NCBI RefSeq assembly: GCF_028389875.1 | Contig: NC_084678.1 | Location: forward strand, 16,894,899-16,958,898 | Reading direction: 5' to 3' | Source of the DNA: Rhea pennata | Taxonomy: Eukaryota > Chordata > Aves > Rheiformes > Rheidae | Length of the DNA: 64,000 nt | In this document: positions 12,615 through 57,540 of the stretch, piece by piece | How the letters are laid out: each line of letters begins with the position of its first letter | Position numbering within the stretch: the stretch's first letter is position 1 | Program-made: the position numbers and the translations under genes | The notes under the pieces: model-generated | Seen by the model: only the letters and a program-made list of their open reading frames with translations | What the model was told of the DNA's origin: nothing | Databases searched by the model: none

Positions 12615-12896
12615 GTGCTGACGCGGCCGTCACGGAACCCAGCAGCTCCGACAGCCGAGGGGAGCGCTCGGACCTTTACGCCAGCGTGGACGAAGCGCTC
12701 CTGGGGGGCGAAGCGAGCTACCTCTCCCAGCCGCTGACCCCGGAGAAGGAGGACGCGCTCCAGGCTGCAACGGTCGCCAACCTGCGAGCAGCGCTCATGA
12801 GTAAGAACAGTTTGCTGTCTCTGAAAGCTGACATGCTGGGAGAGGATAGTTCTCTGCTGTTTGAGTACTTACCCAAAGGCACGCATTCGTTATCTC
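12615..12896 (+). CDS. ZBTB46: ZBTB46 coding exon, middle region
   Basis: The acceptor is TTTGCGCAG before 12615 and the donor is CTC|GTAAGT after 12896. The frame has codons starting at 12617 and encodes ADAAVTEPSSSDSRGER through EYLPKGTHSLS. The human counterpart is ADLSVTEASSSDSRGER through EYLPRGAHSLS. The exon enters needing two bases and leaves one base into a codon. It is more GC-rich than the flanking introns. It has no zinc finger and is the last exon shared by the two alternative 3' ends. Confidence 0.95.
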
Positions 12897-15800
12897 GTAA
12901 GTTTGTGTTTTTATATTTTTGCTTACTGATGCTTTAAGTGAAACCTTTAGTGAGAAGAAAAGAAAATACAGCCCATCTCCCAGTGTATTGCTACTTAGAT
13001 GTTAAATCTAGTTTTACATTATGCTTAATCACACGTCTCATAAAATTTGGAAACCTGTGCCTGTTATTGATGCAACTTTAAAGTCAACTTCTGAAGCCAT
13101 AAATGAAAGTATATAGTGTGTGTGTGTGTAGCGCTTACCACAAAAATTCTGTTTTATCTGTTTGCAAAATTGTAGTTACAAACCACCCTTGGAGTCCTTC
13201 AGTTAAAGTAGCTGCAAAGGTTTTGAACCCAAAATTGACTAATGTTAAAACTGGGATGACTGTTGCTTGACTTGTGCTCCTGTATTCTTAAAAATGGTTA
13301 CGATTTTGTGGATCATGTGATCTTTACTTTTTGGTGTTGACTTTTAGACCCCCATCTCTAAGTAATGAACAGGTATATTTTTTTTGTATTTGGAAATGTG
13401 TATTTCGCTACTGGTGATCTGTTGGACGTGGCTGTTAGGTACCAGAATGTGTGGATAGCTTATTTTTCAGCGTACTTGCGTATCATCTTCATCGTGATTG
13501 TGAAGTAGTTTGATTCTGTGCTGCACAAAAAACTCTGTAAATGCTGTATTTGAATAATGCTTTCAAAGATGGGAACACGAACACTTGGGACAGTTTGTGA
13601 CATAACAGATTTCTTAGTATTCCATCTCTGTTTCCAGCCAGAAAGGTTGAATTAAATAGAGTAAAAAGTTCACTTAAGGTATCTGTTATTTTTATTTTTA
13701 TTTCCTTTGATGGCAAAAAAAGATTGACTTAATGGTCACTAGGATTGTATGCCAACTAAAGAGAAATAACTGCACAGTATAAAGTTAGTCTTGGTATTTC
13801 TTCTCCCTTCCTATATCTTGACAGTGGAATCTTTTTTTTAATCTGTCTAATTTAGAAAAAAAGTGACAGTTTTGTACTTTCTTCTGCAGCTTAAATATTG
13901 GGGATGAGAAGCAGGTGTTAAAGCAACACTTTTGTTTCTACAGTAATTTGCTTCTCAAATAATCTCCAGTTAAATCAGATTTAGATCATTCAAAGTAAGC
14001 CAAGAAAATCCCTTCATTGCAATGAAATAGCAAAGATCCTCCGTAGCCGTTTAATCACCAGGCGTGGGTGCCACAGAAAGGTTGCCCTCCCCTGGCACCT
14101 GGGGGGCGGGCGGTACGGAGCAACCTGAGCCTGGGGGCATGATTTATGCATGGTATGTTGGAATCTCTGGTACGTGACTGATGAAATTAGTGGTTTCATC
14201 TTTTGTCATGATAAACTGGAATAATGATTGGACTGCACTCTATCCATCATCTTTTTCTTGGTTTGGGGATTTGGGATTTTACTTGTAAGATGAAGGACCA
14301 CTTGGCATAAAGACAAATGAGTAGAAACCAGTCATAAATTTAAGCTAGGAATTAGAGGGTGTCTAACCAGCTGAGAAATGAAGTTCTGAAACAGGCATGG
14401 TTTAGGCAAAAGACCAACTAGGTTTAAAATGAAGCTCGATGAAATTATAAATGAGAGTAAATGATGGATCATCAATGGACGTGATGAGTCAGGAGTTCCC
14501 TGCCGGTCTATATTTGAGGTCCCTGTTTTCCTGTCCTTTCACTATTGCATGAATTTCATTCAACTAAGCTCCAGTTACCTCATCTTTATAGAAAAGTGAA
14601 TTACTTGAGACAAATTTGGTCTGTAGATTTCACAGCAGGTAAGGGGATATGGCTGTGGCCGATAGGAGAATTCTTCCGCAGATGAAGCAGGCAGTTAAGG
14701 AATGTATTTTGTCTTTGACTTATTCAGAGTCACAGGTTTTTGCTTGCTTTAATCGCTTGAGGAAAATACCCTAATATAAGACTCCTGTGTTTTGTGGTCA
14801 CTATTAAATACAGAAGGGCAAGGAGTTTAATAGGAATTTTCAGCGTACAAAATGAGATTAAAGCAAGTGATAAAATTCTGGAGATCTGAAAACACTGTCT
14901 AGGTTGGTGCTAGCTTTGTAGGTGTTTCTTACTTTTTCTACAAACACAATTTGAGGATGTTGAGTCATTTTAACTCCTGGGTTATATAAAAAATAAAAAT
15001 AAAAGCAGGGGGTAGGGCGGGAGCACAGTAAACAAGATTCCTTCTTAAAAAAACCAAAAAGAGCAGTGTGCTAGTTTTCGTTTGTCTGATTTGAAAAGGA
15101 AATGTGCTAATTTAAAGAATAATAAGTGAACGTTCTCTGAGTTTAAATAACGCAAAATGTACTTTAATCTTAACTGCAACTACTAGAGAGTCATCTTATT
15201 TTCTTACGCAGTAAGTAACTGTCTCAAGTGGCAGTGTTAACATTTATTTTTCTTTTCCAGCCTAAGACTTAGTTGAGGTGTGAGATCGGAAGAATGTATT
15301 ACATGTATTTGAAATTCCGATGAGCCGTTTCTAGAGGGGTATAGCTCTCAAAGTCACTGCATGCATTCCAAGTTTCAATTTTTCTTTCACATAGTTCATA
15401 CTGTTGTAAAAGTTAATAGAGGTTACTCCAACGTTTTCATTTTACCTCATGTTCTTTTTTTCTATTCACTGTATATTGTAATGATAATGTGAGGTGTGAA
15501 ATTGCTTACTATTCAGTTAATGGAAAACAGAGCACAGAATGGTATTGTTTCCATGAACATCACTTTACTATGATATAGTGAAACATGCGTATAATATTTT
15601 TAAAGTTAACCAATTCAAAACAATTTAAAAACAGAAGGGAAAATTTAAATGTCTTGCCATTCAGGTGATCCAGGTGCCTGATAACCAGCAGCTAGATGGC
15701 TTGGAGAATTTATGGAGTCCATGGTATATGATCAAGACTGACTTTCTTAATACACTTGTTGGAAATCTAAAGAACATATATGTTTTGCAGAAAAAGGGCA

Positions 15801-18601
15801 TGTGTCAACTACTCATGGCTAATACTGATTTCTTGGGTATCATTAGTTACTGAACCTGCATAATTTCTTGTTGTAGATGTCCTTCAGCTTAGACATCAGC
15901 AGTTCAGCTGTCCGTGCCTTTACCCGTTCTCGTCTGTAAGGGCAGGTTGTTTGCCCATTTCCAGCTTCAGCAGTGCTATTGTACTGAGTCGCTTTGTTGT
16001 TTAACAATGTGTGTTTTATTTATGGTACTGAACTTTGGTAGCATTGTTATGCGCAGTTACACCACGTTTATAAAATTCTCAAAGGCTTTTTAGGTGATCG
16101 GTTTTTACTGCTTTTGCCAAGAATAAGCAAGAGAATGAGAACATTAATGCTCATTAAAAATGAGTTGGTTAATTTACATCCTTGTTTTCACATTTAAAAA
16201 GTCAAAAAGGTTTCAGATTTTGGGGTGATTGACTACCTAAAAGAGGGAGTCCTTTCACATTTTCAGAACGGCATGTTGCATACTTCTTTATATATCTAAG
16301 TTTGGCTTTTCCTGTTTACCTTGTTGCAACTAAAAGTGTTTATAGAAGCAATTCCAATGAATCTTGTTGTCCAAGTGATTACATGGTACACAGAGGCCTT
16401 TTCTTTTGGGCAAAACGGCTAATATTTTATTTTTAGTTAGCAGTTCACTGAAGTCAGTAATTTATACTTGCACTGGATGTTAAAGGAGTATATTTACATA
16501 GCGGTCAATTTTCCTGAGGGGGGAGGTAAAGGTATTCAGTTAGGCATGGAATTTTTGTACATGATAAATCAAGATTTAGGGGAGTTGTCATTTTAAACAA
16601 GATATAATAACCTTTACCCTTCTGTTTGTTTTCAACATTAGTTTACTGCTGAGCTGTCAGTTCTCTGAACAATAGAGAATACTATAGTTAGATAACTGCT
16701 AAACCAATGCTTCATGTTCCATATGCAAAGATGACTGAAGGAAAGCGCCTTTAATTTCTGATTTAAAAAGATAAAATTCTTCATTAAAGACAAACACAAA
16801 TTTAGGAGGAAAAAAGAGGTTGCTCACCATACTAGTCAGAATGACACAAAACCTAAATTCAGGTGCTGTTTGCGTCCTTGCATACAAACTACGGATTGTT
16901 TATGTGGTTTCTCTTCTTGTGATACTTGCAGTTGTTGAAACCAAATAAATATTTATTACTGTTTTAAAATTCATGTTTGTACCTTTTTGTTGTGTTGTAT
17001 ATATTCCTGGCTCATTTGGAATGATTGAGTTTATTGTTTCTCCTTATTCTACTTCATTGCCCATTCATTAACCTTAACTTTTGCTTTAAGAAGTGTGTAG
17101 TTTTTTAGGAACTTGTGTAACTTTGTAAAGGTGCTAATAAAGAATTAATAAAGCCAGAGTACTGGCTTGTCTTCACTGTATACTGAAATACAGATTGTTT
17201 AGGGAAATATAACTTAGAACTTCCTCTAAGTTGCCTGAAATCAATGTGTGGCCCTAATATAAATAGGACAGTTTGAATAATTTTGTGAGAATCAGAAAAA
17301 CGCTGAAACTTTTGGACGGCTAGATGAGAATTTTGCTATCAACCTGGAAAGCTATAACCCTAGTAACGCTTTCTAACAGAAAATATGGAAGAATTCACTC
17401 TTTTCCATTGTTTCCTATCTTCAGCTTATGCTTCCGGCATTTTGTTGTCCTCCTTTTAAATTATGATATCAAAATACGAACCGCAGCAGAGAGAAGGCTT
17501 CGCATATTGTTATCACGCTTGAATGGATCTAACTAAGTTGTGCAAGATTTCAATCTATGATCAAAGCAGAGGAAAGTAGATCAAACCTCCAGCCTGTGGT
17601 ACAAGAGTAGAATTTCCTCTGATAGCTGATAAAAAGTTCGGTTTGGGGTAGTTCATACAGTTTGAAACCTGCATGCAGTTTTACTTGAATGCTCTGTTGT
17701 GACCCAGATCGCAGTGTACAGTGTTGGGACGTAGAATAAACTTTGTGACTTGTCATTTGTAGTTGCATTAAAGAGTGGTTTTTGATGCGTAAAAGTTTCA
17801 ATCATCCTGTAGTAGGAGTAAAAAAAAAAAAAATAGAGTGCTTTAAATATGAACTTGTTTAGTTTTATTTCTCATAATTTATATGAGCCTACAGTATTTG
17901 CTTCTGATTCTGCCTTCCTTCTGAAAAATAATGACCTGCTCAATACTTTGTTCCAATCTGTAGTCAATGCCAATGTGCAGTCAAGTGTTCGGTAAGGTTT
18001 AATTAGCAGTTCGTAATGTATAGAAACTAGTCTTGGTCACAGTGTTTATTTGTATGTAGATTTGTCACTGATTATCAGCGTATTTGGAGGAATACTGTAT
18101 GTCATTTGGCTACTGCTACAGAGTAAGGAAAAGGATACGATCCTATTTCAGTCAGACGAATAATTTGTTTGTTTTTTAAGTGCAGTAGATTTTTAAAATG
18201 TAATGACTGTCAGATAGAACAGTTTTGTATGAATCTTTCAACTTCCAAGTCTATAAAATCAGAGAAATACATTTTCCCCCATCTTTTGTAAAGCACTTTG
18301 AGATCAAGGAATAGCAGTTTTGTATTAAATAAAACAAAAGGTCAAATATTGAATTTGAAAGCTTTAAATCTTAAAGAAATTTAGTAGTAGAATGAAGCTT
18401 GTTGTATATGTGTTAATTGAAAATTTAAATGTATATATTCAAAATAGTGCTTCTCAAAGAGGCATCTTTCCGAACTGTGATTGCTCTGGATATTTGTGCT
18501 GCGTTGTGCTTCTTTCTCCTGACGGACTCTTTAGTGACCGTGCCATGAGATGTCCACCACATACATCGCACGCAGACAAGGCGTTTTGGGTGGGGAGGCT
18601 G

Positions 18602-18647
<46 letters not shown>

Positions 18648-21600
18648 CCCGGCCTCACTGTACTGCTGCGTTCCCTCCCACTGACAGAAGATAAGCTGCA
18701 AGTGCTCATTCACTGTCTTTTCAAGGCCTTTTTTTAAAACCACCAGCTGGTGCTAGTTCACGTGGGTGAGATTCGTTTCCTGTGTTCCCCAGGGCCTGGC
18801 ACCAACTTGAATCGTTCAAGGGGCGAATGTGATGGCAAAGTGGAAGCACCATCTCCCCCGCTGCCTTCATCACACCTTGCCACTCAGAGCCCCCCTGCGA
18901 TCTGCTGTTCTGGTGAAATGTCACCAGAAACCATGATAAAAGGAGAGACGCCTTCCTCAACCCAGGTAAGATCGGGTGGGGGGAAATGCAAAAAAAACCT
19001 TAAATGTACAGGAACCTGCTTAATCAAATTCTTCCCAATTAGAAGTACTTTGAAAGACCATCATATCTTATTCTTTGATCTCTTAACTTATATTTTAAAA
19101 ATTTAGCTATTTTTAAACCTAAAAACCTGTTGAGGTCAGAGCTGACATTGTCCTAATTTTACCCTTTTTTTCCTTACCTCAACACAACCTGCATTCAGAA
19201 AACTATATATATTTCTTTAAAGTATACGGGTCGTCTTACTGTAAATCCATTAGTTTGCAAGACATTACATGTAAGAATATTAATAATGGCATAAAGGAAT
19301 CTGAGCACTTGGCTGTACAGTGCTTGTTTGTAGTGTTTTGGATTTGGGTTTCTTTGAATTATCTAGATACAGATAGAGGCAAACTGATTTTCTGTAATAC
19401 AGGAATTTGACATAAAATCTATTGCTTTCTATAGCATTTCTTCTGTGGTATTTTGAATGAGATTTCATACCCATTAAATGGATGAAAATACAGGTTTTCC
19501 TTTGTGGTCACCTTAGAGAAAGATGAGATGGTAAGAACTGCTGATAGCCGCTTCCCTGGTCTCTGACAGACCTGCCCAGGCCACATCGTAGGCTCTGCCT
19601 CATGGAGGGTTGCCATCTGCCGCACACCGGCATGTTGCAAATGGTTTATGAAAAACTCAGCTTTTATTTATAATTTGATTCAGCAATGCCGGAGAATGCT
19701 GCATAAAGGGAACTGAGCAGAATGTATATTGTTTTCTATGGGCTTTCTCTGCAGAAAGAATAATCTTTTATAGGACTAAGGGAAAATTTTCCAGTTTTGT
19801 TGCACCTGCTAGAAATTTTCTGTTCCATGTTTCCCACTGGCTTGAGTGGGAGCTACAAGTGCTTAGTGACACTGAAAATTGAGTACTGTTACCAAGGACC
19901 TAATTAGGAATGTTGATTACTGTCTTTAGGCATCAAATCTTACAGAATATGGCCTAAGTAACTAAGCTTTGTTAACAGCAAAAATTTTGTAAAGACAAAT
20001 AGCATTGCCAAGTCTAATGATGGACCTCTTAAAACAAGGGGTGAGGGTCCTGATAAGATAGGAGTCTAAGCATTAACTACAGAGATGTGTTCTCGTAAAT
20101 GCTTGCCTTAACTTAAGTACGCTTTCCATTTGCAGGCCACTTACGGTGGATTTTTAACACTTTGGCAGTTTGATAACTCTGACTCAAGTAAGTAGAGAGA
20201 AAAATATTTTTTCAGTTACTGTTATTTTTTACCAGAAGACATTGATTTGTACGTGTGTATGTGTATTTCTGTTTTAGATTTAAGTTTTTCAAGATCTGAA
20301 GACATGGACTTAACCAGTGATGGCCTATTCCTAGATTCAGCCCTAACCAAGAGATTGGTTTGTGGTTTCTGCAGGAGGGTTTTCGAATGTACTGACCAGC
20401 TGAAGGAGCACATCCTCGAGCACGCCTTGTCCGTGATTCTCCCCTTGGACTTCGCTGACTGTGCCCGGCCGGGCCTCGCAGACAGCCTTCCTCCGGGTCA
20501 GCTCCCTCGCTTCCAGTGCTCCAAATGCCCTGCGAGCTTCACTCTGAAATCAAACATGGACCGGCATGAAAAGACGATCCACTTCAACTGTAAGAAGATG
20601 CAGTGTCCTAACTGTGCCAAGCTGTTTCGAGACAAGACAGACTTAAACCGGCATCTTATGTCTGTGCACTCAAACGAGCGTACTTTTGTGTGTCTCCCCT
20701 GTGGCAAGGGCTTTGGTACACAGAAGAACCTCACGAATCATATGAAAGTGTGTTCCTTAGGCTCTGCCCAGCTAGGAGGGTTTGAGCTTTTGGATAGTGT
20801 GGAACCAAATCAGGATCCTGAGAATGCCTAACTAGTGTTATGTATATTGGGCATTTATTTCTTTTTAAACTAGGAAAAGCAAGTTGTGTCATTGTTTTCC
20901 TACTGCAAATAAATTTACTACAGGTGTAATGTAACATAGTAACTCCCAAATACTGATCAGGTTGATAATGCACGGGTTCCAGATACTGTATAAATAATAG
21001 TTGCAATCATGGTGCGGTATTTGTGCAAAGATACTTTTGTCAGTCCATATAATGGCACTTTGGATATTTTATTGGTATGGTAATACTGTGTACTTATTGC
21101 CTTAAACTTTTTCTATCAGTAGATCTCAAAGTGCTTTATAAAAGAAATTAGATGTTTCTCTGTGTTGAAAGGGAAAATAACGTACCAAATCTTGCGAGTG
21201 TGTTAGCAATAGAATGAGTAGTAGAATTCAGTTGTCTGAGTTCCGGTCTGGTGCTCTGTCCATTAGGTGACTCAGTCTCTGCAGGGTTGTTTTGGAGCTG
21301 TGAAAGCACTGAGTTGCTCCGCACCAAAAGATATCTGTGAAGGCTGGTTTTCTGTGTCATTTAAAGGAGGGGGGAGAAACATGCATCTTCTGTGTTTGTG
21401 CATCAGGGTATATGTTATTTAGGCTTTCAAAATTGTTGCAAGGTTTATATATTTTATTGCTTGGTATTATCTTTGAATATGTTAGGACTTTTAAAAATAT
21501 ACTCGAGTATGACTGTGACTTTCAGGAGTTCCCTAAGTTTTCTGACATATTTGTTTTAAATGATGTATTAAGTTAACCGAACTGTGAATGTTAGCTGTTT

Positions 21601-24600
21601 CTTTGAAAGAGAAAGAAGGGGCTGTGCTGTGAGCTATGGTGCATGTAGAAAATCAGTCATGGTTGTTACTGGAAGGTTGACAACTTACCTTAATGCCTAT
21701 TTTATTACTTTTTTTTAAGAGATTAGATACTTACACGTGCCTCTTGCTATATATTTACACACAAAACCAGACTGTAGTAACTGTTAAATGAAAGTCATAA
21801 GTGAAAGTGTAGTGCTTTTCGGCTGTGCTGTGTACAGCACAGCTTGTCTGCAGTTTGAGCTTTAGCATTGCGTGTATTGTAGGGTTGCTTTCCTTAGCAG
21901 GTGAGGCACAACTAGAAAAACCAAAACAACTTGCAGATAATCTTTTGACTTCTTCAGAAAGAAGTTGCTTCTCTCGTAATACGATTGCATCTCAGGGAGA
22001 CAAAAATGAGAAATACTTAATCAGGCACAAAAGGGACTAAACTGCCTGAGATCTTCAGTGGAGGATTTTTTGCAAAAGTGCTTTCTGTGGAAAGCCATTT
22101 CCACAGAAAGCAATTTTGCAAGTTTCTTTCTGCTCTGGATTCTTGTTATAGAGGGAATGGGTAGAGCAACACTATGCCAGCATTACCTATTCCTGCTGAA
22201 ACATGGAGCTTCGGAGAGCTCCACGCTGCATCAAGGCTGGGTTTCTGAGTATTGGGAAGCTGGTGTTTCCCTGGCTTGGTTCTCACGCTTTGTTTAAGCT
22301 GAGTGTCGTCAAAGCTGAGAATATGTTCCCATATAATCATTATAATATACCATACTTCAGTCATTTTTTTGGTGAAGCTATGCAATTTTTTTTGTTCCCA
22401 GAGACTTCTTTGTCAATCGCTTATACCTGTTAATGTCTAATTTATAATCCTTATAAGGATTATAAGTAATTTGCTTTTAAATAGCAAACGAGTGAAGCAG
22501 GAGAAAGCTGAGCCAGAAGAGCAAGTTGTGACCAAATGTGTCGTCTTACCCAGAAATTTGGGAGGAACACACTGTATTTTTTTTCTGACCCAGAGGAGTA
22601 AGACACCAGCAAAAGTAATTGCAGCATATTTTAAAAGACTCTGTTCACATGGTAGTAGCTATCAGCATGTTTCATGTTTGTTCTTTTTTTTTTTTTTTTT
22701 TTTTTTCATGTGGAAATTTTTGTCCCATTAGCGTATCAGCCATAAGCCTGACTTCTCTAATGTATTTGCTGGACAAAAGATATTAAAATCTAGTCACTGT
22801 AATAATGGTAGACATGGTGTGACACCTGTGTCCCAGTGTTGACATATGTGCCCATGAAAGACCATATTTGACCATTTCAACAGTTTTCTAATTAAAATTT
22901 TCAGCAGAATCAACTATTTTGAGCTTCATACATGACTGCATTATGAAAGCACTCATATAACTTGAGAATTGAATTCAACATTAAATTATTTTCCTGTAGT
23001 CAGATCAGCTCATTGTCCTTCTAGTAGAGGTTTAAGTAGTGTTTTACTTTCTCCATAGCATTAAATTGCTTTCTGACTTCAGTGCTGGGTTTTTCCAGTG
23101 TTACCTTCAGGATCAGGAGCAGATTTTTTAAAAATGTTAAAACCAAAGGATACAATATAGCAGAGGCTTACAAAGTTTACATAGAGCATTTTCTGTTTCG
23201 TTTTTATTTTGAATAGTATGTTTGTATTAGAAAATGGAATAGTGTGGGAAAATGATGGGAATTGTAAATTAACTATTAAATTGCATCTTACTATTTACAA
23301 CCTTAAAATATGATGACGAGTAAGTAGACAAAAATTCTCTCAGAGCAAATTTGTGAATTCTTCATAATGAGCAAATGAGTATAATATTTCAGTGATTATT
23401 ACATGATTACTAGTTTACAGGGTAAATTCAAAGTAGCTTCATCAGGCAGTAGATCAATCACTACTGCTTTCACTTCTCAAGTCAGGAATATGGGAACCTA
23501 TTTCATTTAATACTCCTTATCCTGAAGAAAGTTTTGTCACTATTTTCTGCCACCTGGAAGCTTTGTTGCATGCATATCTGCACTTCCATATGCAAACTCA
23601 AGCTATTGTAATACTTCACGAAGAAGAGCCAGTTTGTCTCCATTTGTCCCCTCATCACTGCCTGTTACCATCAGCGGTGCTCGCGGGAATTGTTCGGGAT
23701 TTGGAGCTCTAAAGGGTGCGGGCAGCGTTTGTGGAGCTAGTGGCTTCGGTGAAATCATTCCCGAAGGTGTATCTTTCCTGCCTTTTTCCTGCTGCAGCTG
23801 TGCAGGTTGGCCAATGGTCAGTTTTGTTCCTGTTCTTGTGGGATTGTAGGAAAGGGGAGGAATCAGAGCATCAGGTTTGAGTTGTGGCGGTTTTTTGTCT
23901 TCTATCAGGGCTTCTTTCTCATTAAGATGTATTGCAAAGTACTGAGCTTTCCTCCCGCTCCAAGACCTCCTTGCTCCAGAGGCTACTGGTTGGCAGGTTG
24001 TCCAATGCGTCTTGCAAGCCAGGTCCAAAAGCCAAAGGTCGAGTTACCAAATGTAGGCAGCCCACATACCATGGAAGGGAGGAGAGGAAAAATGAGGGTG
24101 TAGGGAGTTGAGCCACGAGTTTGATCCTGTTACTTTGCAGTAGCAACACTTCCAAATGCACTACTAGAATTCAGCATTTTAAAGACAAGATATTACACTA
24201 AAAGTTTTTTTTCTACCTTATGGAAATTGAAAATGACATAGTTTTAAAATATTTTGGGGAAAAGTATATAGGATATAGATTTTTTTCACCAAAATTCCGC
24301 TACTCAAACTTAGAAAATGTCTAGGTTTATGCTTTACTTTCTCTGATTCAGAGGAGTTCGTGAATGATTTTCATTAGAGCTTGATAGACTAGTGTTTTTA
24401 TTACTGTATTTTTGCAATTTATCCATGTTTTTTAAAAAAGTTTTTTTTTACAGGTGATGGACAGTAAATACATTTCCAAAACCGTATAGTATTTAAACTA
24501 CTTGTTACTTTTTTTGAATGAGGAAAGAGATGTAACTTTACTTAAGAAAAATATCAGAACATGAAAACCAAGAAAAATTAACCTCAGTGAAATAAGTAGT

Positions 24601-27600
24601 TACTTGAGAAGACAATACCAAAGGCAGCTTTTCCAAGCATTGTTGGGTTGATTTAAAAAACACACATCACTTGTAAATATTTTAATGAAATTAAGTACAT
24701 AGATTTTTACTATGACATTGTGTGTATTATATTCTCAATTTCTTGGTGCTATTCTTCATATTTTCCTGTCCAGTAGCTACTTATCTATGGGGCTACTGTT
24801 AATGGTCTTGGTGATCTTGTTAAAGATTATTTCTTTAGACCTTAATGCTGCTATACTTAAGCTCTATAAAATATTAATATGAGCCTTCTTATGTAGGGCC
24901 AATAGTTTGTACTTTTTAACTGTGTCATTTAGACAAAACGTTATGCCTGTACCAAAGTTGGTATGTTACTCATTAAATATATGTGCTTGTAGGCATATAT
25001 ATTTAACAGTACTGTAAAAATGTTAACTCTGCAATACATTTTTTTGTCTACAATGCTGTTATTTTTCAGGTGTTAATTTTTGTAGGTGCAAAACAAATAT
25101 ATGGCTATTTGGTGAAAGAGTTTTCAATAAAACTGTAACTGCAAAAAATGTTCTGTGACTCTTTAAATATAAACATACTAGAAGCTGAAAAAGTTATTTG
25201 CTAGTGATTTAAGATGAATACAGGCAAAAGTAAGCATGAGGAATATTGTAATCAGGAATTGTTTTAAATATGTTAGATCTTGAATCTGTTTGACCTTAAG
25301 GCTTTGATCTCTTTAGATAAATAGAAATAATTAAAATGATATGATAGATTTGTAACGATTCTTTGAAAATATCCAGATGTGGGCTTTTTTTTTGTCCGAG
25401 TTGGGTATGCAAATACACATCAGTGTGAACATGCTCTGATTATGCAACTAAAGCAGTATAAATACAGGCAAATCCAGATAACTGTATGTGAATGTGGCTT
25501 GTTACTGGTGCAGGTTGTTGCACCTAATGTTTGAAGTTGCCTTTTGAGCTTCGTCGCTAGCTCAGCCATATAAACTGAAGGGTTAAGAAGTAGGCGGTAA
25601 ATAGTGGAAAGCTTCTGATCGTGTAGGAAATGACAGAATCAGGTACCATCTGGTGATGCAGGAAATAGTATTTTGTAGTCTTCTCTTCTCTAAAGCACTT
25701 CTGCTTCATAACATCAGGACCACATTGCTGTGTTGCTTCACGGTGGATTTTAGGGAGTGAAGTGGTTAACGTGACTTCCTGAGTTGTCTCTGCTAGCTGT
25801 GTCCTCCACCCATACCGTGTGCATGTTGTGGAAATGGCCTTGGACTGGAGGAAGGAGGGTTATATGACCCCTGTTGACTTCACTTGATCAGCTTATAGCT
25901 TGCTTACCTTGTCTAGACTGTAGAGTAATAGGTTTACAGTGATCCTGGGGAATACAAGTGTTTTGTCTGTATGGCCTGCTGTTAATGCCCAAGCAGTTAC
26001 AAGATCAAACTGGAAACATTTATCATAAATAGCATTGTATCATAAATGGCATTGTATCATAAAATTGAAATTTGCTAAGGATTTTTGTATAAGAGAAAGT
26101 GGGCTCCTTGCCTCAGATTGTATAGACTAGGGTGGTGTGTCCTATCCAAAGGAGAAGATGCACCAAAAATATTTTTTTCAGTAATTTAAGTTTTCCCAGG
26201 AAGGGAGCAAATAAAGAGAGAAGGCCGTCTCACGTTCGAGTCCTTTCAACAAAATCTTGTAAGTAAGAGGTGAGGTATGTGGTAGGATTGTTTAGACAAG
26301 CTGAGTTGTTGTTACACTGCAGCAAAAGCTTGCCCAAAGCCCTGGACATTAGAAGATCCCCATGGAAAGCAAATGGTGCCTGGAACTTGCATGTTGAAGT
26401 ATCATCTTGGAGGTTCCCAAGGCAGTGCAAGTATGTGTGCATATTACCACCTTAAACCAGCCTTTTAAACTTCCAGTTGATTGCAGTAAGTAACCTTTAC
26501 TGCCAAGTGAATAAAATATTCTTAGCTATTCTTCACTATTCCTGTCATCACTATTGCAACCATGGTCCAAGTGTGAGTAGATTTCCCTCCCCCATTTTGG
26601 GCTAGAAAATTCTCATGACTGCTTTACAGACCTGGCTCAGGCATCTATAGGAAGCAATACCACAACTGTTGAACAGCCCAGAGGAGCAATTTAAGAGTAA
26701 AGAATATTAGATCCAGTTCAAACTACTGATTGAAGGAGATATTTTTTCAGTTACCTGTGTGGTGGCTTTTTTTCCTTGCAAGTAACCAGAACAAATGCTA
26801 AGACAAAATACCTATCATGACAACTTCTAAGACTTTGAACCGTGCTATTATTCTGTGTTAGAAAAAAAAAAAAAAAAAAAAAAAAAACTTGTAAAAAACT
26901 TTAAATTGAGCTTGTGTTCTGATTTAAAAGGTGGTGAATGTGAATTTTCATTCAAGTGGTGGCTGCAGTAAAAATGCACCTTTAAGCACAATTCTGTAGG
27001 ATTTTTTTTTTCCAATACTGGCTTAGGGAGAAGATTGTTCCTAATAAGTGGAAGAGGAATTCCACTTCCTATGGAATTCCGTTTTATTTATTCCTGCAAC
27101 CAAATACTGAACATACGAAGCACGCTCAGCTTTTGAAACCTTGTAAAATAGTGTGTTTTCTCTTTCTATTGAAAGTAGCATAGCTCTTTTATCTTCTGCC
27201 TGGATTTCCTGATGGAAAAAAGGACAAATGGTCGGTTCAAGAGTGATATTTCTAACACTGTTTCCTCCTCTAGTGAAGACATCTTTGGCTATGTCCTGCC
27301 AGCTTTATAGTATTAACAGCATCAGGCTGTAGTTTTCACTGGTTTTACATGCGAGTCAAATATAGTTGTTTTTCACATTGTTTTCATCTGCATTGCAAAT
27401 GCAAGACAAAGTAAATGTTCAAAACAGAAAGAAAAAAAAGTCCACAAATTGGGTATTAAATAACACTGAATACAGAGGCATGCTGAGTTTAAAAAGGGGG
27501 GGGGGGGGAAGAGCTTATTTTATTTTATTTTATTTTTATTAGGAGCTATTTTTTTCAGAATACAGTTTAACTCTCCAGGGCATTATCTGTGGTACACTGA

Positions 27601-30600
27601 GAACATGTAGTGTACATTCAGCTAGTAGGGCTTTTCTAGAAGATAACATTTGAATATGCATCTAAAGATACTGGAAAGTATTCAGTATGTCAGAAACCTA
27701 TAGTAGGTGTGGGATTTCCCTTATGCCCTTCACTCTTACAAACACTGTTTTGTTTACCAGAAGCAGCCATTTACGTATACAATAGCATATTTAAGATGAT
27801 TAACCATAATTTGCTTTCTTTTTTTCCTCCTTGTTATGTAAACAGTACATTGCTTTGAGAAATGACAATAATTATGACAGAAGTGGGTGAAAATTAACAT
27901 ATTAATGGAAAGAAATAGATTATAGAAGGTAGAGATAAAAAATATATCTGCATGGACAGTCATTTCCAAATTTATAGTGGGTGAATTTCCTTAGGGAATA
28001 GCAAATACTCTGTTTCACCTGCCATATTTTGCATATTGCACTTTCATTTTGTTTAGAGGAGGAAATACCAGCACAGCTGCTGTGTGCATTCTTCTGGCAA
28101 ATTAGACTGGTGGGCTGTCAATACTGTAATATATCCCTTGAGTTTGCTTTCAATGCACTTCCAAAGAGATGACGAGAAGGAAAGAATCAAAAATGTCTGA
28201 ATGACTTCAGAAGATTCATCATCTTCCAGTCTGGCAAAAATATGATAAAAAGTCCATGAAGGACTATACAGTTGAGTTGTAAGGAGGCATGTAAGGGTCA
28301 TGCTTCAGGATTATACATCTTTCTGTATTTCTCTGCCCATGCCATAGTGGTAATACTAGCTGAAAGTTGGGTACTGTTGCGTGCGTTTGTCGTAGGTGTC
28401 CTCCTGGATGTACCTCGGTGTTTGCACATTCATGGAAATACTGCTGGAGTATTTGTCTTAACCTTGAAGTAGTTCTTACTCGCACCCCTCCATAAATAAA
28501 AATCAGGTAGTTCTGCGTGGCACTACCAGGGTCCTGCAGTTATGGTCCTTTTTTCACAGCTAGCTACTACTTCCACGAAGAGCTATGTTGGAGATTCAGA
28601 TGATGCTCTTGAGGCTAATTTGTTACAGTAAATTAACATTATAACAGATTGTCAGCCACTTTAGTTTCCTCTTTAAAAAGTATTAGACAATGTGTGTTGA
28701 TGGCTGTTGTTAAATGTTTGTGTACTGGCTTTTCAAAACTTTATCTGATGAAAGTACTTGAAGTTCTTAGCTTTAATCATACGGTGTCAGAAGGCAGATT
28801 TAGAAAGGTTAAGAGGTGAGAATATGCTTTCACAGTGAAGTAATTCAGCAGTGAAATACTGAGCAGGAAGACTGACGTCCTGGGATGTTCTGAGTAACCT
28901 GTTTGTTTTGCTTACTCTCTTGCAGTCAACGAGTTCACAGTGATCAGAAAGAAATTCAAGTGCCCGTACTGCAGTTTTTCAGCGATGCACCAATGTATCC
29001 TGAAGAGACACATGCGATCCCACACGGGAGAAAGGCCCTATCCGTGTGAAATCTGCGGGAAGAAGTTCACGCGCCGCGAGCACATGAAGCGGCACACCTT
29101 GGTAAGAAGGCCCCGTGGGGCAGCTCGCGCGGGTGCCGGTGGGAAACGGAGATGATTTGCTCAGATTAAAGATAGCAGGAACCTCCTCTGATCCAGGTTT
29201 GCGTTTGCTCCTCTCTGCTGCGGCCCTGACCGCTATGGGGAACCTGTGCAGTGGGGCCTGGAGGCAGCATAGGCTGGTTGAAAAGAAAGTTTTCCAATAG
29301 CTTGAGTGATTTGGTACAGAAAGTTTTAAAAGACTGCGTCACTTGCAAAGGAGGCTTCGAGCCAAAGCTACTCTAGTCTGACAATGCTGAATTATTAAAA
29401 ACAATACTACATTTTATTAAAACCTGCTTGCTATTCAAAAACCTACTACAGGGCTGGTTAATGGCGTCTGGCTTTTTAAAGCTTCTTCATAAATAACATT
29501 TTTCAAGCCAAATCTTTCATTTTCTTTTTTCTTTTTTTTTCCCAGACAATTAATCTGCCACTGTAAAGTGGTTTCTCTAAGCTTAGTAGAGATGTGATAG
29601 TGTGTGGAAAAGCAAAGAGTTTCTATGTAATTATTATTATGTAATTATCTCAGTGATGCACACCAGTAAGCTCTGCTGCCCCTCTAATTAAGCTTGTAGA
29701 GAAAACAAGTTCTTCATTAACACTAGGGGTTGTAGTTGTGAGACTCCAATACTGTGAGATATTAAAAAAAAAAAAAAAAAAAAAAAAGTGACAGTTTCAG
29801 TGACTACGAATTATTCATTCAGATAATTTGAATAACTCTTATTTGTATATTTGCATTATCAAATTTTGACTGTAAAATTACCTTACTGGAGGCAATGTGC
29901 TGAGATTAATGAATGTTTTCCTGACTGTAAACTCACAAAAAGCCACAAGACTTTTAATGCCCCCGTCCCAGTGCTGCAAGCACGTGCATATCCTTGCATA
30001 CTTTCTTTCAAAGGCAATTTGATAGCAGTAATGTGGCTTACTTCAAGTATAGCAAATTTGCAGGTTCTTTTTCCTGTTCTAGAAAGTGGCTTTAAACTAG
30101 TAAGAATCAGCGTATTTTTACATACTGTAGCACAGGTAGCAAACTGCTTTATATCCTTCAGGAATGAAATTGAGGTGATCTGCAAACTAATTTTAGGTCT
30201 CAGTTTCTGCCGCTGAAATCATTCTAGGTCACTGACTTGATGTATTGACTCTGGAGTTCAAGTTTTCTCTTTTTATACGCAGGGGAAGATGAAGTCAGAT
30301 ATTTGTGGAAGTATATAGGGGAGGATATATATGGATTTATCCTTCATGTCTGTCTGAATCTTCCTCTTAGACTTCTTGTATGTTAGGAATTAAACTTGTT
30401 TAGAAAATGCCAACTAGATTACAGGTTTGTAATGCCTTAAAAAAAAAAAAAAAAAAAAAAAAGAGTGCCTCACTAGCAATGACAGTTTCTTTTTATTCCA
30501 AAGAGACCAAGACAGATCTTGTAATACAAGCACTAAAAAGTTCACTGTCTTGAACTGCTAACGATCAAAAGTCATTGCAAAGGAACCTAATAGTGGGGGT

Positions 30601-33600: not shown

Positions 33601-34820
33601 AAGGTTAGAAGTGCATTCAACAGCGTGTTTTTAAAGATACAGGATGTATTCATTGTGTTGCTATTCTTCGGTCCTTGGCAGTGAAGAGATCAGGAGAGAA
33701 ATGGCTAAATTAATGTGGGACATAAACCTGTTTGATAGTGGATTGTTCTGGTCTTGTCTACCCAGAGGACTTTTTAGATTTTCCTCATGTTATTGTAGTG
33801 CAATAGAAATGTGTTTGGCCGTACTGCATCCGCAAAGAGTTGCTTCAAAGCAGGGTTTTCTTGGGGAAGACCTACCTTGCTCCACCACCAAAAACCTTGC
33901 GTGAAGTCGTGCGGCTTGTCATCCTTACAATTTTTAAATGCAGGTGCATTTAGTAGCTTCATGAATTGCCTCCTTTGACAGGCCTGCAGAAAATCTCGTG
34001 TTGCACTGTCGTTCCTATGACTTTCAAACAGGTTTCCTGGCAGCTTTAAACTCTCCTGTGATTAAAGTTATCTTAAGTTAGTTTGTGACTGTGAAAAGTA
34101 ACAGAATTATTTCAACAGAATAATTTCACATTATTGTGCCCTGGACTAGAAAAAAGGGGGATAAAGTTTAAGTGATTGGAATTTCATCCCAAAATTGCTA
34201 GTTTGGTGATCAGAAGGTATTTCCAGAAGGATTTTGCATTGTATTACACAGTTGCAGGATTGAATTAATCATGGTGGGTTTAAGTAGCACTGTGAAAGCC
34301 CATGATGGTCTCGGGTTGCACTCACAGGCTACAGCGCTTTTCCTTTGCAGAAAGATAGGGGAGTGTGTCCTTCCTTGCAGCTCTCGGTTTATCTTTGTTG
34401 GCATTAATTTTTTTTATTGTTCTCCTTTCCTAGGTCCACAGCAAAGATAAAAAGTACGTATGCAAAGTTTGCAATCGAGTGTTCATGTCTGCAGCCAGCG
34501 TGGGAATCAAGCACGGCTCCCGCCGCCACGGAGTTTGTGCCGATTGCTCTGGCCGCGGCGTGGCCGGTCACTTGGATCATAACGGCGGCGAAGGGTCTCC
34601 GGATGAATTATATCCTGGCGAAGGCCAGTACATGGAAGACCCAGATGACATCAAAGTGGAAGGAGACGAAGAGATGGGAGACGAGGATGACATAAAGTGG
34701 AAAGACGACGTCGGAATATCACAAGATGATGTGATTTTAGATGATGACAAAGATGTCGACTCTCCGCAGGAGCAGGAGAACTCTGGGGAGAACGACAAGG
34801 ATTTTACCTGGATTTCTTAG
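12615..34820 (+). CDS. ZBTB46: ZBTB46, BTB/POZ zinc finger transcription factor (3' part)
   Basis: ZBTB46 (BTBD4, zDC) is a nuclear BTB zinc-finger repressor, known in mammals for marking classical dendritic cells and some endothelium. The human protein is 589 aa. This window holds the part after the BTB exon. Coding exons are 12615-12896, 28926-29101 and 34434-34820. Phases join exactly: the first exon ends one base into a Leu codon that the second completes, giving SLS-L-NEF as in human. The exons encode the middle region (SSSDSRGER, SLLFEYLP), two tandem C2H2 fingers with a TGERPYPC linker, a third degenerate finger (YVCKVC...HGSRRH) and an acidic tail ending DKDFTWIS (human DKDFAWLS). The BTB domain is outside the window. 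A second set of 3' exons at 18793-20831 is annotated separately. Identity is very secure. Confidence 0.96.
12897..18792 (+). other. ZBTB46: ZBTB46 intron between shared exon and alternative exons
   Basis: AT-rich intronic sequence. It includes a short TG repeat near 13115-13131, several poly(A)/poly(T) runs and a 41-base A run at 18606-18646. I see no convincing exon, RNA gene or transposon in it. Confidence 0.6.
18606..18646 (+). repeat. Poly(A) homopolymer, 41 bases
   Basis: An uninterrupted run of 41 A lies about 150 bases upstream of alternative exon B. No retrocopied gene or SINE body is recognisable on its 5' side, so I call it only a homopolymer. Confidence 0.9.
18793..18965 (+). CDS. 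ZBTB46: ZBTB46 alternative exon B (Ser/Pro-rich linker)
   Basis: The acceptor is CCTGTGTTCCCCAG and the donor is CAG|GTAAGA. The exon is 173 bases. Entered from the exon ending at 12896, its first two bases complete an Arg codon and it reads RPGTNLNRSRGECDGK through KGETPSSTQ with no stop, leaving in phase 0. The product has about 58 residues and is rich in Ser, Pro and Thr without a domain I recognise. It resembles a flexible linker between the BTB part and the fingers of exon D. Evidence is splice-site quality, open frame and phase match with exon C. No transcript data are visible here. Confidence 0.7.
18966..20135 (+). other. ZBTB46: Intron between alternative exons B and C
   Basis: About 1.2 kb of AT-rich sequence. 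I see no gene, repeat family or structured element in it. Confidence 0.55.
20136..20187 (+). CDS. ZBTB46: ZBTB46 alternative exon C (52 bases)
   Basis: The acceptor is CTTTCCATTTGCAG and the donor is TCAA|GTAAGT, both close to consensus. It enters in phase 0, matching exon B, reads ATYGGFLTLWQFDNSDS and leaves one base into a codon that exon D completes as Asn. It is too short to stand alone. Its support is that both sites and both phases fit exons B and D. B and C together add 225 bases (75 codons), so they can be kept or skipped without changing frame. Confidence 0.68.
20278..20831 (+). CDS. ZBTB46: ZBTB46 alternative terminal exon D, four C2H2-type zinc fingers
   Basis: The acceptor is TATTTCTGTTTTAG and the frame is open to TAA at 20829-20831, encoding 183 whole codons. 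It carries four fingers, each with Cx2C and 12 residues to the first His: LVCGFC...HILEH, FQCSKC...HEKTIH, MQCPNC...HLMSVH and FVCLPC...HMKVC, the last being C2HC. The first and second fingers are separated by about 35 residues; the others lie close together without TGEKP linkers. An AATAAA follows 77 bases after the stop. Phase allows joining from exon C, or directly from the shared exon at 12896. It therefore looks like an alternative last exon that would replace the usual three fingers. A separate nested finger gene is possible but no BTB or start exon of its own is evident. Confidence 0.85.
20908..20913 (+). terminator. ZBTB46: Poly(A) signal after alternative exon D
   Basis: A canonical AATAAA sits 77 bases beyond the exon D stop codon. 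It supports this exon as a genuine transcript end, with a very short 3' UTR if used. Further A/T-rich candidates follow to about 21.1 kb. Confidence 0.65.
22069..22122. repeat. Short near-perfect inverted repeat (hairpin)
   Basis: Arms at 22070-22093 and 22098-22121 are complementary over 24 bases with a single mismatch, around a four-base GCCA loop. One more G-U pair is possible in RNA on the + strand. Function is unknown. The loop is too tight for a usual microRNA precursor. Confidence 0.85.
22442..22465. repeat. 24-bp perfect palindrome
   Basis: The two halves are exact reverse complements with no spacer, centred on the TTATAA at 22451-22456. It lies in an AT-rich intron, and no function can be inferred. 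Confidence 0.85.
23603..24161 (-). pseudogene. Antisense proline-rich open stretch, possible retrocopy
   Basis: On the - strand the frame from about 24043 to the stop at 23603 is open for roughly 146 codons. It has protein-like composition with Pro-, Lys- and Gln-rich segments such as LKPDALIPPLSYNP and ISPKPLAPQTLPAP, ending LALLREVLQ. Upstream, 23922-24161 is open in another frame (containing GPGLQDALDNLP), which could mean a frameshift in an old retrocopied gene. No introns, poly(A) tail or known family are recognised. It could also be a chance frame or an unrecognised exon of an antisense transcript. The ending has a loose PNRC-like look, but that is not strong enough to name it. Confidence 0.25.
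28926..29101 (+). CDS. ZBTB46: ZBTB46 coding exon, zinc fingers 1 and 2
   Basis: The acceptor is CTCTCTTGCAG and the donor is TTG|GTAAGA. Its first two bases complete the Leu codon begun at 12896. It encodes NEFTVIRKKFKCPYC...HMRSH, the linker TGERP and YPCEICGKKF...HMKRHT. The second finger's last His comes from the next exon. The exon is 176 bases and leaves in phase 0. The protein is almost identical to human ZBTB46 here. Confidence 0.97.
29102..34433 (+). other. ZBTB46: ZBTB46 last intron
   Basis: The sequence is AT-rich to about 31.4 kb and from 33.4 kb on. It has A runs at 29764-29787 and 30439-30462 and a small CG-rich patch at 31500-31720. Between them lies a CpG-rich block annotated separately. 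No further exon is seen. Confidence 0.6.
32270..33330. other. CpG-rich block inside ZBTB46 last intron
   Basis: About 1 kb is rich in CG dinucleotides, unlike the AT-rich intron around it, and contains a G run near 32478-32493. Open frames here overlap on both strands and look like products of base composition. It may be an internal CpG island. No exon or start site can be assigned by eye. Confidence 0.5.
34434..34820 (+). CDS. ZBTB46: ZBTB46 last coding exon, third finger and acidic tail
   Basis: The acceptor is TCTCCTTTCCTAG. It opens VHSKDKKYVCKVCNRVF and continues through SVGIKHGSRRHGVCADC, completing finger 2 and carrying finger 3. The tail is strongly acidic (GDEEMGDEDD, VILDDDKDVD) and ends DKDFTWIS before TAG at 34818-34820. 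The human tail ends DKDFAWLS. The exon is 387 bases (128 aa plus stop). Confidence 0.97.
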   Translation, partial: VHSKDKKYVCKVCNRVFMSAASVGIKHGSRRHGVCADCSGRGVAGHLDHNGGEGSPDELYPGEGQYMEDPDDIKVEGDEEMGDEDDIKWKDDVGISQDDVILDDDKDVDSPQEQENSGENDKDFTWIS

Positions 34821-41733: not shown

Positions 41734-44700
41734 CTGCGGACGCGAGGGCGGGAGGGTCGGGACGGGGGGGGAGGGGGTCCGGCCCGGCAGCGCCCCGGGA
41801 GCATCCCCGCGGGACGGGGCGGGACGGGGCGGACGGGACGGGACGGCGGTCGCGGCTCACCTGGCGGCAGCGGGCGGCTTGGGCAGCGCCGGGACGGGCG
41901 CCGCGTGCGTCTTCGCCGCCGGCGCCTGGGGCACCGGCGGCCGCTTCTCGCCGACGGCGCCGGGCCGGAGCGGAGCGGGGCAGCCCTGCGGGAGAGCGGA
42001 CGCAGCCCCCCGGCGTGAGCCCCCCGCGGCCGGCACCGGTGCCCGGGTGGCCGCGGGGTTGGGGCGGGGGGGGGAGCGTCGCGGCGGCTCACCTGGTACG
42101 CGTGGTCCGTGTGGACGTGGCACAGGCTGGTGGGCGCCGACTGGCTCAGCTGGGGCGGCTCGGGGCTGGCCAGCGCCGGCGCGGGGCCCGGCGGCGCCTC
42201 CAGCACCGGGAAGGCCGGGGGCACCGAGGAGGTGGGGGACACGGGCGTCAGGCTGGAGAGCCCGTCCGTCAGCGAGTCCACGTTGATGTCCAGCTCCGTG
42301 TAGTAGAAGTCCTCCTCGCCGTCGCTCTGCTCCAGGTCAGCTTTCCGCCTGCGGGGCACAGCGGGGGCTGGCCTGGAGGACCCGGGCACGGGGACGTCCC
42401 CCCCCCCCACAGCCCACGGCGCGGCCCCTGGGGCGGGCTGCCTGCCCCCTTCCAGCCCCACCACGAGCTTCTCCCGGAGACAGGAGAGAGGAGCTAAAGG
42501 ATCAGCCCTGGAGCCAGGCGTGCGGGAAACGAAGCAGCCCCGGCGCCGGAGCGCGGGGAGCCCCCGCCCTGCGCTTACCCAAGGTGCACGGTCCGGATGT
42601 GCTTCTGCATCCCTGAGGAGCTGCTGAGGACTTTGCCACAGCTCTTCCACAAGCACTTGAACATCACCTTGGTGGAGTTCTGCATGGCAGAGGAGTCAGG
42701 TCAGCAGCCCCAGACACCCTGGTCCCCACCGCCATCCCTGTTCCTGCCCCAACTTCATCCCTATCCCCATCTCATTCCATGATCCTGTCCCCATCACCAC
42801 TCTAATCTCTGACCCCATCCCATCCCACCCTGTCCCAGTTCCCATCCTCATCCCAATCTCCCAACCCAGTGCCATCCCATCTCCAGCCCAGTTTCCAGCC
42901 CCAGCCCAGTCCCAATCCCCATCCTCGTCCCATCTCCATCCCAGTTCCTATCCCCATCTCAACCCTGTCTCCATCCTCATTCCCAACCCAACCCCATCCC
43001 AGTTCCCATCCCTATCCCACTCCCCAGCTCCATCCTTGTCCCCATCTCAGTTCCCATCTCCATCATCATCATCCCAGTTTCCATCCCCATCTCAACCCTG
43101 TCCCCATCCTCGTCCCCAACCCAACCCCACCCTGGTTCCCATTGCAACCCCAGGTCCCATCCCGAACCTCATCCTAGTTCCTACCCAATCCCCATCCCAT
43201 CCTGACCTCACGCCCATCCCGTCCCTGCCAGCCAGGCCCCAGCTCACCTTCCTCTTCCTGGGGATGGGGTCCCCGAAGACGAAGTGGGTGCCGTCGGGCT
43301 CCTCGGGGCCCTCGCCCGGCGGCGGGGCGGGCGGGCGGCGGGGGCCGCCGGCGGCGGGCAGCGGGGGCGACGGGGTGGAGGGGCTGGAGCGGTCGCTGGC
43401 CGGGTCCCAGCTCCAGTCGCCGCTCGTGTTGCTGCTGCTGCTGCAGCTGGAGGACATGGCGGGCGCCTCCTTCCAGGCCTCGCCGCCGGGCTCTGCCGCG
43501 GGCGACAGCGGCGGGTGAGCGCCGGGGCCGCGCCGCCGCGCCGGGGCCCGCCGCCGCGGGGCCTTACCTGCGCCGGGGGGGCCGGCCGGGGGGCCCAGCA
43601 CCAGCGGGCTGCTGGAGAGGCTGGTGAGCACCGCCGCCGCCATCACCTCGTCCAGGCCCGCCTGGCCCGAGAGCTTCCTGCGGGGGGGGGGGGCAAAGGG
43701 GAGGGGGTCAGGGGGGGCCGCTGCCCCCAGCCACGGCGGCCCCCCAGCCCCCCGCCCACCCCCGGGCAGCCGGGACCCCCCAGCTGCCCATGGCCACCGC
43801 CCCGGGGGCTGCAGCGAGAGGGGGCTGGGGGAGGCTGGGGGGGGCTTCTCCTCCTCCTCCTCGCTGCCCCTGGGCCATGCTGCTGGGTGAGGAGGAAGGC
43901 TTCTCCTCCTCCTCCTCGCTGCCCCCTGGGCTACGCCACTGTGGGAGGAAGGTTTCTCCTCCCCACTGCCCACTGGGCTATGTTGCCAGGGAGGAGGAAG
44001 GTTTTCCCTTCCTCTTCCTCCTCACTGCCCAACAGCCTATGCTGCCAGAGGAGGAGGAAGGCTTCTCCTCCTCCTCCTCGCTGCCCCTTGGCCATGCTGC
44101 CACAGGAGGAAGAAGGCCTCTCCTCCTCCTCGCTGCCCTCTGGGCTATGCTGCAGGGAGGAGGAAGGCTTCTCTTCCTCCTCACTGCCCACCAGGTTGTG
44201 TTGGGCAGGGAGGGGAGGAAGGCTTCTCCTCCTCCTCCTCGCTGCCCTGGTGGCAAGGCTGGGGCAGGGGGGGCGCAGTGGCAGCCCGGCCCAGCTGCTT
44301 CCCGCCCCCTGCCCCCCCCCCCCCACTTCTTGCCGTTATTTAAGTGGGTAATTAGAAAGATTAAACGTTTGTCGTTGAAGCGGGGTCTCCCCGGGCACCG
44401 AGGAAGAGCCGGGCGAGGAAGAGCGCGGCCGGCGCCGGCCCCTTCCTCCCGCTCCTGCCCCACCGCCGGCACCGCCGCCCCCAGCCACGGATGACGTCGC
44501 CCGTGCGGGGGGCTCGTCCGGACACCCCGGCGCCGCTCCGCACGGGAGCGGAGGAGGAAGAGGAGGAGACGGCTCCGGGTTACCGCGGCCGGAGCCGCGT
44601 TCAGCCGGCCCCGGGAGCCGGCACCGGCACGTGCCGCCCGCCGCCGGGCGCCCGCGCAACGCGGCTCTGCTCCGCTTGCGCTAAACCACTTCCTCAAGTG

Positions 44701-55480: not shown

Positions 55481-56010
55481 GCGCTGCACGGTGCCGCTGG
55501 GCTCCCGCTCACTCCCCCTTGTGGGAACGGCGCCGAGGAGCCGGCCGGGAGCAGGTTGGGGGGTGCCCCGAGCGGGGCCCAGCTCCGACCCCAGCACCCG
55601 TGGCGGGGGGCACGCGCGGGGGATGTTTTCTTGGGGTTTGTTGTTGCCGTGTGCTCGTTTTTGTTCTGAATTTCTCCGCCGCCTTGCAGGAGGGGCGAGA
55701 GGCGCCCGAGGCAGCTTCCTTCCCGCTGCGCCACCGGCGAGGGGCTCCCGGGGCGGGGAGACGCCGGGGCAGACGCTGGGCGTCCCTTAATAGGCCCCGT
55801 TTCTCCACGTCCAAGTCCCGCTCTGGACGGGAGAAAGGACACGTCGGAGCTGGGCGAACCCCGCTTTTGGAGCCGCTTTTGCTCCTTGCAACAAGCAGCA
55901 TTTTGGGCATCGGCACCCGAGGACAGAGGAAAAAGGCTTAAGGAAAAAAGAGAATTAAAAAAAAATGCAAATAGGTGCAGAGGGGATACGGGGGGGGGGG
56001 GGCGCGGGCG
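55481..56010 (-). other. LIME1 downstream region
   Basis: Sequence following the LIME1 stop on the - strand, probably holding its 3' UTR. I see no canonical AATAAA on the - strand before the minisatellite, so the transcript end is not placed. No other feature is seen. Confidence 0.4.
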
Positions 56011-56340
56011 CTAGAGGTTGGTGATGTACACCTGGAGCCCGTTGGGCGCCGGCGCGGCGCAGCCCCGGCGCGCCCCGGCCTCGGCGCGCGCCTCGCCGAC
56101 GCTTTCGTACAGGTTCTCGGGGGGCCGGGGCGCCCCCGGGCCCGGCCCGCTCCCGGCCCCGTCCTCGCAGCGGCGCTGGGGGCCGATGGTCTCGTAGCAG
56201 GGCTCGGGGGCTCGGGGGTGCTCGGCGGGGCGGCGGGGCCAGCGGCCGCCCGGCTGCGCCGCGGCCCCCGGGGGCGAAGCCGCCTCCTGGGGAGGTTTCC
56301 TCCTGCCGCCTTTGCACACCGTGGAGTACATCGCTTCGAC
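56011..56340 (-). CDS. LIME1: LIME1 coding exon 5, distal tyrosine motifs
   Basis: The acceptor is CCCTTTCGGCAG on the - strand. It encodes VEAMYSTVCKGGRRK, PEPCYETIGP, PENLYESVGEA and ends LQVYITNL before TAG at 56013-56011. Human LIME1 has VDVLYSRVCKPKRR, LAYQTL and LENVYESIREL at matching places. The last four residues, ITNL, fit a class I PDZ ligand pattern. Confidence 0.95.
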   Translation of the reverse strand, partial: VEAMYSTVCKGGRRKPPQEAASPPGAAAQPGGRWPRRPAEHPRAPEPCYETIGPQRRCEDGAGSGPGPGAPRPPENLYESVGEARAEAGARRGCAAPAPNGLQVYITNL

Positions 56341-57437: not shown

Positions 57438-57540
57438 GGGCGAGCCGCTTCCCGCGCTCCTCCGAGCCCTGCGGAGAGAGAAGGATGGTCGGGCACCGGG
57501 GGCGGCTCGGAGGCGCCACCAGCACCCACCCACTAGCCCT

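Follow-up and report, generated by a model that had tools for sequence, protein, structure and literature searches.

Two alternative zinc-finger ends predicted for ZBTB46 from splice sites, reading frames and conservation among vertebrates

In Rhea pennata, the ZBTB46 gene very probably combines a single BTB domain with either of two DNA-binding ends, the choice being made by splicing. Direct support comes from the splice sites, the reading frames, the single copy of the alternative block and the deep conservation, in the same gene, of this block and of its contact residues. The BTB exon (locus L002, 5213-6149) lies 5' of the window (the whole stretch of DNA that was analysed, 64,000 nt, C16:16894899-16958898) and joins the first exon discussed here, exon E, in phase. 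It is identical to emu ZBTB46 at 312/313 residues, and likewise to kiwi (312/313). The gene is considered the ZBTB46 orthologue: the BTB exon and the shared exon E are upstream, and the joins are open.

All exons are on the plus strand. Exon E (12615..12896), which is common to the canonical and the alternative forms, ends in phase 1. Its end at 12896 had been placed in phase by the first-pass annotation, and this stands; its start is corrected to 12615. The canonical form uses finger exon F (28926..29101) and the last coding exon G (34434..34820). The intron between E and F (12897-28925) hosts the alternative exons B, C and D. These had been proposed as three exons with good splice sites, and their coordinates and phases agree with that proposal. 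Exon B (18793..18965, 173 nt) enters in phase 1 and leaves in phase 0, while exon C (20136..20187, 52 nt) leads from phase 0 to phase 1 and keeps the frame only together with B. The alternative last coding exon D (20278..20831) consists of a split codon followed by 183 whole codons, and it has a stop (20829-20831). It encodes four C2H2/C2HC fingers: finger 1 (C2H2, 20361..20423), which about 30 residues separate from finger 2 (C2H2, 20517..20582), then finger 3 (C2H2, 20604..20669) and finger 4 (C2HC, 20691..20753). An AATAAA is seen 3' of the exon (20908..20913), and cleavage behind exon D probably occurs at this motif. The four fingers, the stop and the AATAAA are as originally described. 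Exon D also contains an internal donor (GTAAGA, 20590..20595) between fingers 2 and 3. The product of exon B looks unstructured, and 45/58 of its residues are as in koala. It includes MIKGE, which is kept in koala and altered to MIKGK in loggerhead; we take MIKGE to fit the SUMO site pattern.

The donors (with a slash at the exon border) are CTC/GTAAGT for E, CAG/GTAAGA for B and CAA/GTAAGT for C; the acceptors are ...TTCCCCAG/G for B, ...ATTTGCAG/G for C and ...TGTTTTAG/A for D. Sites were scored with a simple matrix based on general consensus frequencies, the rank being the number of host-intron sites with at least the same score, the site itself included. Among the 1046 GT of the intron, the donors of B and C rank 2 and 6. 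Among its 1086 AG, the acceptors of B, C and D rank 9, 6 and 42. For comparison, the same matrix gives 31 for the canonical acceptor at 28926 and 33 for the donor of E. The internal donor of D (ACT/GTAAGA after 20589) is the weakest of the set, with 59 of the 1046 GT scoring as high.

Six joins are open: E-F-G, E-B-C-D, E-D, E-B-C-F-G, E-B-C-D'-F-G and E-D'-F-G, where D' stands for exon D ending at the internal donor. Both E-B-C-D and E-D remain open as far as the stop of exon D. E-B-D and E-C-D hit stops, as B or C singly breaks the frame. The assembled alternative protein (BTB-E-B-C-D) has 665 residues. Two further forms are possible at the locus, one with the canonical fingers behind a B-C insert, the other a hybrid via the donor inside D. 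The initial claim, an alternative 3' end of ZBTB46, gains from the presence of the same block on the same gene elsewhere; it is amended by these two forms and by the fact that the end is already in public annotation.

Exon D has one DNA match in the genome (1.27 Gb, 180 contigs), and its next genomic protein match reaches 53 bits, compared to 421. Pfam assigns zf-C2H2_4 (6.8e-15) and zf-C2H2 (4.9e-14). A finger pattern has four matches in the intron, all within exon D, and 0 matches in 100 first-order Markov sequences. A chance frame is ruled out by the homologues and by this Markov control, and a repeat or retrocopy by the one DNA match and the spread-out exons. With the same pattern, no further alternative finger end was detected in the intron, exon D excepted; the canonical fingers escape this pattern, and the search is therefore not exhaustive. 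The alternative fingers match 218 solved structures, the best 60 of which are generic C2H2 arrays, with ZNF568 at the top.

Elsewhere in the window, a neighbouring gene on the minus strand has a finger-like stretch (42584-42655); we assume a resemblance to SLC2A4RG or ZNF395. Also on the minus strand, reading frames at ca. 55938-57532 contain several tyrosine motifs and presumably resemble the adaptor LIME1. Together, these two neighbours would then reproduce the gene order seen around ZBTB46 in human.

When exon D alone was used as the query, 31 proteins were found at E <= 1e-3, of which 28 are related to the block and three (P0030-P0032) are generic finger proteins. With the alternative part of the 665-residue protein as the query, there were 76 matches at E <= 1e-10 (best E = 1.4e-158). 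The koala alternative part gave 143 at E <= 1e-3, with one generic Ciona finger protein among the best 120. The search requires shared 5-letter words and so favours conserved fingers. The 76 and 143 matches are mostly ZBTB46 gene models that carry the BTB domain, and such homologous models are mostly automatic predictions. A protein search for a conserved block in the same gene had been suggested, and it located the block far beyond birds, from ray-finned fishes to marsupials. ZBTB46 models with the same end, named here by cluster representatives, occur in birds (Dromaius, Apteryx, Parus, Cygnus, Phasianus), in turtles, alligator, tuatara and lizards (Caretta, Alligator, Sphenodon, Anolis), in monotremes and marsupials (platypus, echidna, koala, wombat, Tasmanian devil) and in caecilians (Microcaecilia, Geotrypetes). 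Among fishes, they occur in sturgeon, paddlefish, gar, bowfin, ropefish and teleosts (Polyodon, Acipenser, Lepisosteus, Amia, Erpetoichthys, Anguilla, Oryzias). In a short record from Danio (ZBTB46 isoform X3), the alternative fingers are present and the BTB part is absent. Some fish ZBTB46-like models with this end (P0095, P0096, P0141, P0149, P0163) are publicly named PRDM16, SETD1B, ZBTB17 or HIC1.

Identity of exon D to that of this bird is 167/182 in emu, 140/181 in loggerhead, 118/179 in koala and 95/175 in gar; for fingers 2-4, the values are 79/82, 74/82, 69/82 and 59/82, respectively. As judged from these comparisons, the second DNA-binding end is constrained, yet faster-evolving than the canonical fingers, because the canonical finger block is identical to that of this bird at 81/81 residues in kiwi, turtle and wallaby, and identities in D are lower. 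Exons B and C are weak in fishes (gar: B 21/56, C 4/10). In 116 of the 132 records P0033-P0164, exon E ends on a residue compatible with a join to B (R, W or C). The residue is H in two records: P0089 (Coturnix) goes straight from E into D, and P0111 looks like read-through. The direct join seen in P0089 (12896/20278 in this bird) had been anticipated in the first-pass annotation. Ten short unnamed records matched by exon D are no proof of splicing because they start with translated intron sequence.

Of the 132 records, 131 could be matched, and the 110 that cover fingers 1-4 were kept. Among the 21 partial records dropped were those from kiwi (P0038), alligator (P0052), snake (P0081), Calidris (P0068), Varanus (P0083) and Ciona (P0124), as well as canonical-only forms. 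Nine hybrids were set apart from the 110, leaving 101 aligned models. In these models, which were chosen by alignment coverage so that the condition of a full alignment favours intact fingers, the zinc ligands are complete, except for a single gap cell in finger 3 and another in finger 4. At helix positions -1, 2, 3 and 6, finger 2 has L, S, N and R in 101/101; finger 3 has D, T and D in 101/101 and R in 99. The finger 4 helix has T in 101, K in 100 and N in 99 of the models, and its position 6 is variable (T in 94/101, N in 2 and in this bird). Finger 1 has kept its ligands, and its helix is not conserved. We read fingers 2-4, a tandem array with near-fixed contact residues, as the putative DNA-reading unit; finger 1, which is set apart from the array, is probably accessory. 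Finger 1 is shortened in pigeon (P0082, Patagioenas fasciata) and in a similar record (P0018). The alternative and canonical finger blocks have about 20/67 residues in common, and their contact residues therefore differ. The alternative fingers presumably bind DNA, and the DNA target would differ between the two ends. From the general recognition code, our guess is that the core site of the alternative array is near NANGCCGAN.

The 132 records were classified by simple patterns, which makes the following counts approximate: 96 carry no fingers other than the alternative ones (all patterns in 89, part of them in 7, among which is garter snake), 10 from 8 bird species are hybrids with alternative fingers 1-2 before the canonical fingers, and 16 have canonical fingers, preceded by the B-C insert, and no alternative finger 2 (one of these, Varanus P0083, also retains alternative finger 1). 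Both arrays are found in 8 records, all from fish and perhaps merged models, and neither array in 2. In marsupial models P0102-P0105 (Sarcophilus, Notamacropus), the B-C insert is followed by an extra stretch, perhaps another exon, before the canonical fingers begin. The bird hybrids, one of which represents a cluster of 191 sequences, raise the question of whether the main exon D product in birds is the hybrid, in which case the DNA-binding end would be lengthened rather than exchanged. The donor after 20589 and the in-frame join to the canonical exon are present in this bird as well. We consider this unlikely, however, as the D stop and fingers 3-4 are kept in other birds (emu, tit, swan) and also far beyond, the internal donor is the weakest of the set, and one of the hybrid models, P0068, which repeats the canonical fingers, looks faulty.

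Exon D might instead represent an independent small zinc-finger gene that is nested within the intron and has a start of its own: translation from an ATG at residue 9 of the exon would yield a 175-residue protein, and several public short records begin in or near D. This Met is, however, present in only 9 of the 101 aligned models, and conservation extends to exons B and C, whose join to E is in phase; a nested gene is highly improbable. That the block is an unused relic, which gene predictors keep calling, would be compatible with the predicted nature of the models and with some damaged cases. The garter snake model (P0081, Thamnophis elegans) lacks the final His of finger 2 as well as one Cys of finger 3, and it stops short of finger 4; unlike koala and gar, it has no finger above the Pfam cut-off, and its alternative fingers look like a case of decay. 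In record P0029, the block is degraded and scrambled after finger 2. Nevertheless, ligands and contact residues are near-fixed from fish to marsupial and the frame is undamaged in this bird, so that a relic can practically be dismissed. As to loss, the species named for the 76 matches and for the best 120 of the 143 include no placental mammal, and marsupials and monotremes are frequent there; likewise, no frog, cartilaginous fish, coelacanth or lungfish is named among these matches. Loss of the second end in placental mammals is likely from this distribution, albeit not proved.

For a ZBTB46 with two exchangeable ends, the following course is proposed. Splicing E-F-G would lead to the known ZBTB46 protein. 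Once exon B is recognised, B and C would be added as a pair, and exon D, which has a stop and an AATAAA of its own, would then terminate the message, resulting in the 665-residue protein with four other fingers. The BTB domain would be retained while the DNA target changes. In BTB-ZF proteins generally, the BTB domain serves in dimerisation and co-repressor contact. Cells presumably use the alternative message, and the exchanged end may be expected to have a regulatory outcome. We lean towards the view that ZBTB46 was ancestrally a two-headed factor of bony vertebrates, with two deeply conserved exchangeable ends and hybrids, and that placental mammals lost the second head. If so, work on mouse and human concerns a one-headed remnant of ZBTB46, and loss in placental mammals would be a natural experiment on the role of the second end.

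Chicken ZBTB46 is used as a dendritic-cell marker, in passages that are silent on isoforms (PMC10634274, PMC10357484), and was also seen in putative pDCs, unlike in mouse (PMC10634274). The alternative end matters for immunological work on chicken and fish, in which the use of ZBTB46 as a marker rests on evidence from mouse. With separate 3' ends, 3'-tagged single-cell counts could distinguish the two ends. Exchange of a whole end is familiar from insect BTB genes; a vertebrate case this old would imply that most vertebrates have, in a factor by which dendritic cells are defined, a protein that may read two sets of sites.

Public predicted ZBTB46 isoforms (e.g. Dromaius novaehollandiae X3, Caretta caretta X1, Phascolarctos cinereus X1-X3, Lepisosteus oculatus X1) represent the same gene with the same block and differ in nothing essential, so that the sequence is already in automatic annotation. 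No description of an alternative-end ZBTB46 isoform was found in a literature search by titles and abstract openings, with most subscription papers outside its range; the form is public as a prediction and apparently undescribed. Canonical ZBTB46 (E-F-G) has the same BTB exon and exon E but other fingers. In insect BTB genes of the lola, fruitless, broad and tramtrack type, one BTB part is spliced to alternative zinc-finger ends. The first-pass annotation had likened the locus to these genes. At the level of sequence and frames, the shared BTB part and the exchangeable finger end in one gene bear this out. No counterpart to the many alternative ends of the insect genes was detected: by the finger pattern, which is not exhaustive, exon D is the only one in the intron, and ZBTB46 has one such end plus a hybrid form. 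ZBTB46 thus looks as if it works like a lola-type gene; it is not filed as one because it has a single alternative end. A likeness also exists to PATZ1, which we take to be a vertebrate BTB zinc-finger gene whose splice forms differ in their fingers. There, however, finger number presumably varies, whereas in ZBTB46 the whole array is exchanged.
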